The notes under the pieces are model-generated. The model did no database searches, was not told the origin of the DNA, and was given only the letters and a program-made list of their open reading frames with translations. Positions 11,072-14,454 of a DNA stretch of 64,000 bases are shown in pieces. The stretch covers positions 1 through 64,000 of the forward strand of contig NZ_SMKG01000009.1 in the NCBI RefSeq assembly GCF_004348525.1. Reading direction: 5' to 3'. The number at the start of each line of letters is the position of its first letter. Position 1 is the first letter of the stretch. The position numbers and the translations under genes were made by a program. This DNA comes from Micromonospora sp. 15K316. Lineage in GTDB: Bacteria; Actinomycetota; Actinomycetes; Mycobacteriales; Micromonosporaceae.

Positions 11072-11941
11072 TCACCGTCCCCGCGCCCCGCTCCCGGTCC
11101 CCCGGGTCAACGCCGTGATGATCTCATCCGGCGGGAGGCCGGACGGCCGGTCGCTGACCTGGCCGTCGCCGAGTTCCACCACGCGCCACGCGCCGTCGTC
11201 GCGCAACGCGAGGTCCACGGTCACGAAGGGCAGCCCCATCCCGGTCACCAACGGCGCCAACCACTGCGGGTCGAACTCCTCCGGCGGGTGTGCGTTCGGG
11301 GTGTCGGGGTGGGGTCCGACCAGGACGCAGCTGCCCCGCACCCACCAGGTTCGCGCCTCCGCCGAGGTGAACGACTCGAACTCGCGCAGTACGAACCCGC
11401 CCACGAAGTCGTCGTCCCGCAGTTCCCGCAGTCGGGAGGCGACTCGCCACGCGCCGTCGGCGTCCGAGACGTCCGGGATGAAGGTCGCCTCGTCCCAGTG
11501 GTGCTTCATCGACTTGACGTGGTCCCGTACGACTGCGGGGCCCGTGCCGAGCTCCCGTCGCGCGCGGTCGAAGTCCGTCCGGTCCGTGCCGGTCGTCCAC
11601 ACCGAACGTGGCGTCACCGGCGCCAGCGCCGGATACCAGCCGGGCAACTCGTGGGCCCGCCGATACTGCGCGGCGCTCGTGAGCGGGGTGACGCCCCGGT
11701 CGGCGAGCACCCGCGCGAGCGCCGCGTACCTATCGCCGGGGAGCATCCAACCCCGGTAGACGGCGGTCTCGCCGGCCGGCAGGGGCGGCACGGCGCGCTC
11801 CGGTTCCGCACCTCGGAGCAGCGCGTCGTGGTCGACCACGGCGACGGTCAGGCCGGCGTCCCGGGCCGCCCGCGCCTCCGGGGCGAAGTGCTCATCGGGA
11901 CGGCGCGGCCGCAGCGGATCGGCGGGGACGAGGAGCAGCAC
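11072..11941 (-). CDS. ATP-grasp-like protein of unknown function
   Basis: 289 residues from GTG at 11941. A CACTAT hexamer 7 nt upstream looks like a -10, so this start is preferred over ATG at 12094, which would add an Arg/Gly-rich stretch. The protein opens with S-V-L-L-L-V-P-A-D-P, and its second half has an ATP-grasp-like layout: V-V-R-D-H-V-K-S-M-K-H-H-W, F-V-G-G-F-V-L-R-E-F, then V-D-L-A-L-R-D-D-G-A-W-R-V-V-E-L-G-D-G-Q. The V-D-(V/L)-A-...-W-x-V-(V/I)-E-x-(N/G)-D-G-Q ending is shared with single-domain ATP-grasp proteins that join acids to amines. No signal peptide. It is divergent from the LtrA gene. Substrate unknown. Confidence 0.7.
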   Translation of the reverse strand: MLLLVPADPLRPRRPDEHFAPEARAARDAGLTVAVVDHDALLRGAEPERAVPPLPAGETAVYRGWMLPGDRYAALARVLADRGVTPLTSAAQYRRAHELPGWYPALAPVTPRSVWTTGTDRTDFDRARRELGTGPAVVRDHVKSMKHHWDEATFIPDVSDADGAWRVASRLRELRDDDFVGGFVLREFESFTSAEARTWWVRGSCVLVGPHPDTPNAHPPEEFDPQWLAPLVTGMGLPFVTVDLALRDDGAWRVVELGDGQVSDRPSGLPPDEIITALTRGTGSGARGR

Positions 11942-12162
11942 GCTCCAGATAGTGCCCGGTTCGACCGCGCCGCGCCCACCGGCTCGTCCCGCACGTGACG
12001 CACGTACCCGGGGTCGGGGCGGTGGGGCTGACCGAAACAACCGAGAATCCGCAAGGATCTTCGATTGCCGTCCGCCGCTTCTGGCTGCGCCCATTACCGC
12101 CTGGCCGGTTCTCCCGGCGTGGTACGAATAGCTGGTTGCACGATCGGCGAGGCGGGCGAGCT

Positions 12163-14454
12163 GTGGCGCGGACCAGATGGGAAAGCCTCATCCGGACTCC
12201 CCGCCAGCCCCGGGACATCACCTTCGTCGAACTCTTCTTCGACCTCGCCATCATCTTCGCGCTCATGCAGTTGTCGCGACGTCTGCTGAGCGATTTCGAC
12301 TGGGAGAACTCGCTTCAGACCCTGCTCCTGCTGGCGGCGGTCTGGTGGATCTGGGTGGGGGCCGCCCGTACCACCGACTGGCTGGACCCGAACCAGCGTT
12401 TCACGCAGGGAATCGTCATCGGGATGATGTTCGCCGGCCTGGTGGCCGCCGCCTCCGTACCCGAGGCCTTCGGCGAACACAGCATCGTCTTCGCCGCCGC
12501 GAACGTCGCGGCGCACCTCGTACGACATCTGTCGATCGTGGCGGCGCTGCACGGCCACCCGGTCGGGGCGCGGTCGACGCGCGCCGCGATCTGGTTCGGC
12601 TCGACCGCCGTCCTGTGGATCACCGGGGCGTTCCTGCCGACCGCACCACAGCTGGTGCTCTGGTCGGTGGCCATGATCCTGGACTACGTGGGCGTCGGGG
12701 TCGGCTGGCGGGTGCCCCGTCTGGCGCCGCTGGGCGAGGAGCACCTGCGAGTACGCGGCGACCACATCGCGGAGCGGCACCGGCAGGTCTTCATCATCGC
12801 GGTCGGGGAAGTGCTCCTGACCAGCGGCGTCTCCCTCAGCCGGGCCGGGCTCGACGGTGTCCGGATCGGCGCCTTCGTCCTCGCGTTCGCGATCGCCGGG
12901 CTGATCGCGCGGGCCTTCTTCCTGCCCCGCGGCCTCTCCCTCCAGGACGCCCTCGACCGGCGCCCCTCGACGGTGGCCGTCCGCGCCTCGTACACCCACC
13001 TGGTCATGATCGTCGGCATCGTGGTCACGGCGATGGGTGCCGAGATCCTGATCTCCGAGCCCCTCGGCGAGGCTCGGGCACAGTGGTCGGCCGCCATCCT
13101 GGCCGGACCCTTCCTCTTCCTCGGCGGTCGCGCCCTGTACGCCCGGCTCGTGTTCCAGCGGCGCCCCTGGCGGGCCCCGACCGGGATGCTGATCATCGCG
13201 GCCATCTCGCCGGCCATGCTGCGACTGCCGCCGCTCGCCGTGGCCGGCACCGTCACCGCGGTGCTGCTCGGCGTCGTCTTCACCTACGGGCGGATCGGCG
13301 CCGACCCGCCCCGGGCGGAGACTCCGCTGGCCCAACTCCTGCAGAAGCGCGAGAACCCGCGGCGGCTCTCCGCCTACGAGCTCTTCTTCGACCTCGCCAT
13401 GATCTTCGCCCTCACCCAGGTGTCGCAGCGCATGCTGGCCGACATCACTCTGGGCAACATCGCGGAGTCGATGGTCCTGCTGGCCGGGGTCTACTGGGTC
13501 TGGGTCGCGACCGCGTGGTCGACGGACTGGTTCAACCCGGACGATCCTCGACTGCAACGGCTCATCGTCGTCGTCATGCTCGCCGGACTCCTGATGGCGG
13601 CCGCGGTGCCGAGCGCCTTCGGCGAACACGGCCTGCTCTTCGCCGGTGCGTACGCCGGGACCCACCTCGTCCGGGGGCTCGTACTCGTCCCGGCGTTGCG
13701 GGGGTCCCCGCTGCAGGCCCGCTCGGCGCGGGTGCTCGTCTGGTTCGGCATCTCGGCCGTCCTGTGGCTGGTGGGCGCCTTCCTCCCGGCCTCGGATCGG
13801 CTCTTCCTCTGGGCGGCGGCGATCGTCGTCGACGGCGTGAGCGCGTGGTTCGGTTGGCCGGTGCCGGGGCTGAGCGCGCCCCAGTCGCACCTGAGGGTGA
13901 TCGGCGAGCACATCGCCGAGCGGTACCGTCAGGTCTACATCATCGCCCTGGGCGCGGTGGTCCTGCTCAGCGGCCAGGCCTACAGCAGCGCGGGCTTCGA
14001 CGACTTCCGGACGCTGGCCTTCGCCCTCGCCTTCACCAGCGCGGCGCTGATGCTCTGGAGCTACTTCCTGCCCCCCGATCGCGACCTCGGAGACGTGGTC
14101 AACTCGACCGCACCGAAGGTCGCGGTCGCCGCCGGGTACTGCCACGGGATCATGATCGCGGGGACGGTCGTGGTGGCGGCCAGCGCGGAGATCTACATCC
14201 GTAGTCCGCTCGGGCAGGTGAACGCCGCCTGGGTGCTCATCGTGGGCGGGGTCGCCCTGCACACGGTCGGGCGGACCTTCTTCGGCATCGTGATGTACGG
14301 GGCGAGACATCCGTGGCGCGGCCCCCTGGCACTGGTCGTACTCGCCGCCATCACGCCCGGGTTGCTGACGGCGCCGCCCCTCGTGGTGGCCGCCGCCGCC
14401 ATCTCCGTGGCCTTCCTCCTCACCCTCGCGTACGGGCGCTCCAGGATCCGCTGA
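12163..14454 (+). CDS. Double-length LtrA (low temperature requirement A) membrane protein
   Basis: 763 residues from GTG at 12163. LtrA proteins are normally about 370-400 residues; this one carries two complete copies in one chain, offset by 383 residues. Matching blocks: E-L-F-F-D-L-A at residues 23 and 406; W-V-G-A-A-R-T-T-D-W-L / W-V-A-T-A-W-S-T-D-W-F; V-P-x-A-F-G-E-H; H-L-R-V-x-G-(D/E)-H-I-A-E-R. Each half has about ten hydrophobic helices. The family G-E-V (usually G-E-S) after the E-R-x-R-Q-V segment is kept in copy 1 but is G-A-V in copy 2, so one half may have lost a functional acidic residue. LtrA was first linked to cold growth in Listeria; the biochemical role is unknown. The start codon is uncertain, with a weak GGCGAG upstream. 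Confidence 0.88.
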   Translation: MARTRWESLIRTPRQPRDITFVELFFDLAIIFALMQLSRRLLSDFDWENSLQTLLLLAAVWWIWVGAARTTDWLDPNQRFTQGIVIGMMFAGLVAAASVPEAFGEHSIVFAAANVAAHLVRHLSIVAALHGHPVGARSTRAAIWFGSTAVLWITGAFLPTAPQLVLWSVAMILDYVGVGVGWRVPRLAPLGEEHLRVRGDHIAERHRQVFIIAVGEVLLTSGVSLSRAGLDGVRIGAFVLAFAIAGLIARAFFLPRGLSLQDALDRRPSTVAVRASYTHLVMIVGIVVTAMGAEILISEPLGEARAQWSAAILAGPFLFLGGRALYARLVFQRRPWRAPTGMLIIAAISPAMLRLPPLAVAGTVTAVLLGVVFTYGRIGADPPRAETPLAQLLQKRENPRRLSAYELFFDLAMIFALTQVSQRMLADITLGNIAESMVLLAGVYWVWVATAWSTDWFNPDDPRLQRLIVVVMLAGLLMAAAVPSAFGEHGLLFAGAYAGTHLVRGLVLVPALRGSPLQARSARVLVWFGISAVLWLVGAFLPASDRLFLWAAAIVVDGVSAWFGWPVPGLSAPQSHLRVIGEHIAERYRQVYIIALGAVVLLSGQAYSSAGFDDFRTLAFALAFTSAALMLWSYFLPPDRDLGDVVNSTAPKVAVAAGYCHGIMIAGTVVVAASAEIYIRSPLGQVNAAWVLIVGGVALHTVGRTFFGIVMYGARHPWRGPLALVVLAAITPGLLTAPPLVVAAAAISVAFLLTLAYGRSRIR

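Follow-up and report, generated by a model that had tools for sequence, protein, structure and literature searches.

A Micromonospora double LtrA that arose by internal duplication, with a predicted TMEM175-like fold

The double LtrA gene and its genomic setting

The window, which is the whole 64,000-nucleotide stretch of Micromonospora sp. 15K316 DNA that was analysed and forms part of a 6.96 Mb draft genome, contains a gene that is open throughout and is translated into a protein of 763 residues with two LtrA units (Table 1). Its start is supported by five orthologues, whose homology begins at the same residue, and a longer open reading frame from position 11995 would overlap the divergent gene at 11072-12094. 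A Pfam search returned LtrA (PF06772) alone, as two stretches scoring 451 bits against a cut-off of 31.9, with the best stretch covering model positions 2-355 of 356; a search of NCBIfam returned no family for double LtrA. Alignment of the halves with each other pairs 366 residues, 47% of them identical, and scores 835 under BLOSUM62, as compared with a mean of 47.6 and a maximum of 75 for 200 shuffles, and the FFD motifs of their first helices (TM1) lie 383 residues apart (D27 and D410). The sequence-only reading had described two full LtrA units in one polypeptide, 383 residues apart, and both points are borne out by the Pfam stretches, the shuffle control and the motif spacing.

Table 1. 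Positions in the window of the double LtrA gene and of its parts
Feature	Position	Strand	Basis
Double LtrA CDS, 763 aa, GTG start	12163..14454	+	Pfam match; homology of orthologues begins at the same residue
Half 1, residues 1-383, LtrA domain, 12 long predicted helices as 2 x 6	12163..13311	+	Pfam, alignment of the halves, AF2 model of half 1
Half 2, residues 384-763, LtrA domain, 12 long predicted helices as 2 x 6	13312..14451	+	Pfam, alignment of the halves, AF2 model of the double
FFD motif of TM1, half 1, residues 25-27	12235..12243	+	Asp in 150/150 distinct single LtrAs; on Asp41 of the human TMEM175 FSD if ungapped
FFD motif of TM1, half 2, residues 408-410	13384..13392	+	Same register from the alignment of the double's model
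G-E site of TM7, half 1, Gly215-Glu216	12805..12810	+	Alignments of LtrA domains
Matching site in half 2, Gly597-Ala598, no Glu	13951..13956	+	Alignments of LtrA domains
Linker between halves, residues 378-403, one short predicted helix 388-397	13294..13371	+	AF2 model

Both halves contain E-L-F-F-D in TM1 and E-R before TM7 in all six orthologous doubles, and the glutamate site of TM7 is occupied by E216 in half 1 and by A598 in half 2. Four comparisons among close orthologues gave dN/dS values of 0.22-0.45 for half 1 and 0.26-0.45 for half 2; as these are 0.45 or less in both, neither half is decaying and both are under purifying selection.

We know of no biochemical function, nor of any agreed function, for LtrA (low temperature requirement protein A). 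The literature found on LtrA consists of cold-growth and genome papers and one on milk bacilli; for example, LtrA is cited as needed for Listeria growth in the cold in one paper (PMC5491136) and is named among psychrotolerance markers in another (PMC6449464). Of the 29 LtrA matches in the host genome, 22 are full-length domains, encoded by 18 single genes and by two doubles; the other 7 are partial and confined to four loci (C277, C422:76162-77234, C425 and C222) where LtrA is present only in partial or split form, perhaps a sign of birth and death within the LtrA family. The frames of the single genes are mostly about 390-470 aa.

The double is flanked by an ATP-grasp gene (R2K_3), which is the divergent gene mentioned above, and is followed by a cytochrome P450 gene (14538-15770, + strand). 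When the frames of window positions 3001-25000 were compared at E 1e-15 with the 20 kb around each of the five orthologues, other window genes were shared only by the nearest species, and none were shared in the remaining four neighbourhoods. The P450 has no match at this threshold even in the nearest species, whose 20 kb segment is syntenic. Since the neighbours are not shared around four of the five orthologues, gene context gives no clue to function, and the P450 and ATP-grasp genes are not counted as parts of an operon or of a neighbour-based function.

Origin and spread of double LtrAs

Orthologues of the window double were sought in 160 genus genomes and 354 family genomes, with the best three candidates per genome scored in the latter search, and five were found, in four genera including that of the host, with identities of 89, 77, 72, 61 and 59%. 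In a careful tree of 62 LtrA domains the 12 halves of the six orthologues form one clade (100/99) that contains no single LtrA, and within it the first halves form a clade (100/99) and the second halves another (100/98). A FastTree analysis of 174 distinct domains, reduced from 191, grouped the halves in the same way with support of 1.0. Since each half forms its own clade, one duplication preceded the split of the six orthologues. Within the LtrAs sampled, the phylogeny of the halves against single LtrAs shows that the double arose by internal duplication, as had been proposed for it. LtrA paralogues do adjoin one another in several of the loci fetched, which speaks for a fusion of two unrelated LtrA genes, but each half has the other as its closest relative (100/99), and this origin, hardly credible for the window protein, is ruled out by both trees within the same sample.

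Double LtrAs extend well beyond these six proteins. A family search with a profile of both kinds of double, in which the best two candidates per genome were scored, gave 71 matches in 58 genomes; with the two removed that are not two full domains (in G133 and G047) this leaves 69 matches, so that at least 57 of the 354 family genomes encode a two-domain LtrA. A phylum search scored in the same manner found doubles in at least 2 of 396 genomes, both of one genus. Among plasmids, 79 records matched, all at less than 60% identity, and the 15 matches listed are 1.0-1.2 kb in length, too short for a double.

Many of these proteins belong to a second double-LtrA family of the same bacteria (the C22 type: L018, L030-L032, L034, L035 and others), of which one member, L018, is encoded in the host genome itself. 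It shares with the window double the two-in-one architecture and the presence of at least one Glu per chain; unlike the window double, its halves fall in another LtrA subfamily and have a separate origin. A tree with 19 of its 63 distinct doubles places the first halves in one clade and the second halves in one clade (100/100 each), which makes a single origin likely. Tandem single LtrAs lie among or beside the halves of this family, next to the first halves in the tree of 19. Three loci (L041, L043 and L047) hold such tandem genes on one strand, grouping near the halves of this family, and may represent its unfused form. The route to this family would be either duplication or fusion of tandem genes. 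In the genomes searched, double LtrAs recur within a single bacterial family, where they belong to two separate subfamilies. The sequence-only reading was to be given up if double LtrA proved common and already characterised; common it is, and no description of it was found in the literature searched on LtrA or low temperature requirement protein A.

The TM7 glutamate in doubles, singles and gene pairs

Among 150 distinct single LtrA domains, the G-E site of TM7 is occupied by Glu in 122, Val in 16, Asp in 6, Ala in 4 and Ser and Gly in one each. The six Asp-bearing singles are L002, L003, L011, L013, L021 and L087, and the two singles with Ser (L023) and Gly (L125) sit at contig ends. All six orthologous doubles have exactly one Glu at this site, in one half or the other. 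Five of them, the window protein included, have it in half 1, while the orthologue that is 61% identical to the window double has Val in half 1 and Glu in half 2. The placement of this orthologue (L057) on the 62-domain tree indicates that Glu has been lost more than once and in either half. The earlier statement that only the first half keeps the Glu consequently holds for five of the six orthologues, the window protein among them, and fails for L057. The lasting asymmetry of the halves is supported, and a division of labour between them stands as a description of which residues are kept and not as a statement of function.

When the doubles of both families are taken together (84 open reading frames, reduced to 69 distinct), the residues at this site in half 1 and half 2 are Glu/Glu in 40, Glu/Gln in 18, Glu/Ala in 4, Glu/Gly in 3, Gly/Glu in 2, and Glu/Val and Val/Glu in one each. 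Thus 29 of the 69 have one Glu per chain, 40 have both, and none lacks Glu in both halves. This last result is not significant alone, as the rates of loss (3/69 in half 1 and 26/69 in half 2) lead to an expectation of about one such double by chance.

Such a pattern could arise from neutral redundancy, in which the two Glu present after duplication exceeded requirements and each lineage lost one of them at random, giving asymmetry without gain. The losses in either half, the 40 doubles that retain both Glu and the closeness of the zero double losses to chance expectation are all in keeping with this explanation, which we consider unlikely but still deserving of weight. Against it, exactly one Glu has been lost in every one of the six orthologues and purifying selection acts on both halves. 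A further argument against it comes from single LtrAs that are encoded as gene pairs.

The 20 singles with Val or Ala are all located tail-to-tail beside a Glu-bearing LtrA, and most of these were found by way of the partner. A search that starts from the Glu-less protein avoids this bias, and it gave 48 matches in 46 of the 160 genus genomes; three that carry Glu themselves were set aside, and the 45 Glu-less orthologues that remain, from 45 of the 160 genomes (loci L145-L187, L020 and L040), are without exception tail-to-tail with a Glu-bearing LtrA. A Glu-less member on its own was not seen in the genus sample at the thresholds used. The reverse search, from the Glu-bearing partner, recovered that protein in 44 of the 45 genomes, and the 45th (G009) holds it in pieces. 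The two frames are separated by 8 to 68 bases in 41 of the 44 unbroken pairs and overlap by 27-30 bases in the other three. In the broken pair (L187, G009:C2:33800-39100) both genes are interrupted, which could reflect joint decay or an assembly error.

Relatives of the Glu-bearing member do occur alone. One genus genome (G156) encodes a Glu-bearing protein of 55% identity with no second LtrA within the 7 kb read, and an LtrA from another genus, that of Plantactinospora alkalitolerans (L078), falls in the partner's clade; the roughly 6 kb on its tail side contain no LtrA, and a cut LtrA lies on its head side. The two members of the pair are not sister groups in the 62-domain tree. As the Glu-less unit was never seen alone in this sample and relatives of the Glu-bearing unit were, these data support a joint role for the pair; they fall short of proof, because linkage alone could hold neighbouring genes together. 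The invariable presence of a Glu partner beside the Glu-less singles (45/45) suggests a use for the Glu-less unit and in this respect argues against neutral redundancy.

Predicted fold, a channel model and comparison with TMEM175

An AF2 model of the double has a pLDDT of 86.7 and a pTM of 0.86, from an alignment that holds only two sequences over half 2, and a model of half 1 alone has values of 91.9 and 0.91. Each modelled half contains two sets of six long helices and one short helix. VIA-align searches with the double gave a top ten made up entirely of TMEM175 entries (Z 19.5-23.6; next match 10.8), with matches that span 287-340 residues of half 2 at an rmsd of 3.8-4.6, and searches with half 1 gave eight TMEM175 entries at the top (Z 18.6-23.2; next 7.9). 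Entries titled only "membrane protein" were counted here once their sequence had been confirmed as that of TMEM175. No bacterial TMEM175 occurs among the matches listed for either query, a result that excludes nothing. Foldseek placed TMEM175 (6w8o) first for half 1 (prob 1.00, TM 0.51/0.48, E 0.035) and returned nothing at E 0.001 for the double.

At the sequence level the match is faint. Identity to TMEM175 in the structural alignments is 8-13% with Foldseek E-values above 0.01, an LtrA profile run against the PDB at E up to 10 had no hits, and a Pfam search of the double at E up to 10 gave no match to PF06736, the six-helix TMEM175 family. The host has four separate PF06736 matches elsewhere, on contigs C22, C5, C266 and C299. 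When the N-terminal repeat of LtrA was compared by hhalign with bacterial TMEM175s (15 proteins, chosen for the very FSD-type motif in question from 20 loci fetched), FFD fell on FSD with a P of 0.004 and a probability of 8.7%; nothing useful was obtained for the C-terminal repeat against TMEM175 or for the two LtrA repeats against each other. The structural alignments begin at residue 17 of half 1 and residue 401 of half 2, each opposite human residue 32, which if ungapped sets D27 and D410 on human Asp41. The fold match is strong but rests on predicted models, and its sequence support is weak; on these models, a TMEM175-like fold for the LtrA halves is strongly suggested. No paper that combines TMEM175 and LtrA was found among the 5.39 million papers searched, and the link may already be known elsewhere.

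Human TMEM175 is a lysosomal K+/H+ channel, and its fold is linked to Parkinson disease. It is described as a homodimer in which each chain comprises two six-helix repeats, with a pore lined by TM1 and TM7 and a constriction formed by Ile46 and Ile271 (PMC9129878). The bacterial protein is described as a tetramer whose subunits each consist of one six-helix repeat, in which helix 1 begins with the FSD motif (PMC7176437).

One LtrA half would equal one human TMEM175 subunit, and hence the double would correspond to a whole channel. We lean, by a little, towards a reading of the double as the product of an internal LtrA duplication, a single 24-helix chain that forms by itself the TMEM175-like channel which ordinary LtrAs probably form as a dimer; from the models, a one-chain asymmetric channel is likely. 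Each half would contribute a pair of six-helix repeats folded as in TMEM175, the halves would pack as in a dimer, and TM1 and TM7, with which the repeats begin, would line a central pore common to both halves through which a cation, K+ or H+, could permeate. In TM1 the FFD motif would take the place of FSD, with its Asp in register and no such motif in TM7; in the deduced register, the position five after this Asp is Phe or Leu in 127 of the 150 singles and Phe in both halves of the double. The isoleucine gate would not be kept, since in the same register the TM7 site in the double is Glu or Ala.

Two register arguments place the TM7 Glu relative to this gate. First, the loops of the TM1-TM2 and TM7-TM8 hairpins match in length (43/47 and 228/232), so that E216 would lie opposite residue 31, four after the FFD Asp, for which the TMEM175 equivalent is Ser45 or Ala270. 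Second, E216 follows the invariant Arg205 by 11 residues, and the same spacing separates Ile46 from Arg35 and Ile271 from Arg260. The arguments disagree by one residue, and both would set the Glu level with the gate or next to it. An ordinary LtrA dimer would then have two Glu at its narrow point, and the double and the two-gene pair one. In the double, one of the two was kept after duplication, which would leave the pore a single carboxylate. The earlier suggestion that a single chain stands in place of a homodimer gains support, by way of the models, from the TMEM175-like fold, since human TMEM175 is homodimeric.

Alternatively, the fold could be real and LtrA no channel, with each half containing its own Glu site as in a transporter or an enzyme, the Glu-bearing half being active and the other serving as a structural or regulatory pseudo-subunit. 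That Glu is kept in 122 of the 150 singles, with Asp in 6, and that one Glu per chain suffices in 29 of the 69 doubles would suit such a protein as well, but both register arguments map the Glu near the gate level of a pore helix, and we regard this alternative as rather improbable. The channel reading can be widened to the whole family, such that LtrA is an unrecognised branch of the TMEM175 fold with a gate Glu, the doubles are single-chain, four-repeat, 24-helix channels that need one carboxylate, and the Glu/Glu-less gene pairs are that asymmetric channel encoded by two genes. We offer this wider proposal tentatively, as something that may well not hold in full.

The fold match would give the LtrA family a testable function and would place relatives of a channel fold linked to Parkinson disease across bacteria. 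Additionally, a natural one-chain version, unlike a homodimer, permits individual pore sites to be changed separately.

Among LtrA proteins the double is set apart by the presence of two domains, each of them full, in one chain. Human TMEM175 resembles each LtrA half in its predicted fold of two times six helices and in an acidic motif at the same place in TM1. It differs from the double in sequence (8-13% identity), in an FSD in TM7 that the double lacks, in having the gate Ile or its neighbour where LtrA would have Glu, and in being made of two separate subunits where the double has two units in one chain. Bacterial TMEM175 (PF06736) is a tetramer of chains with six transmembrane helices whose FSD region aligns weakly, in register, with the LtrA N-terminal repeat; unlike LtrA it contains one six-helix repeat per chain, and LtrA has no PF06736 match. 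If the channel reading is true, the doubles would complete a series that begins with a six-helix tetramer and runs through a 12-helix dimer to one chain, and the one-chain form would show a tetrameric channel passing through a dimer to a single chain, in the way that four-domain sodium channels compare with tetrameric ones.
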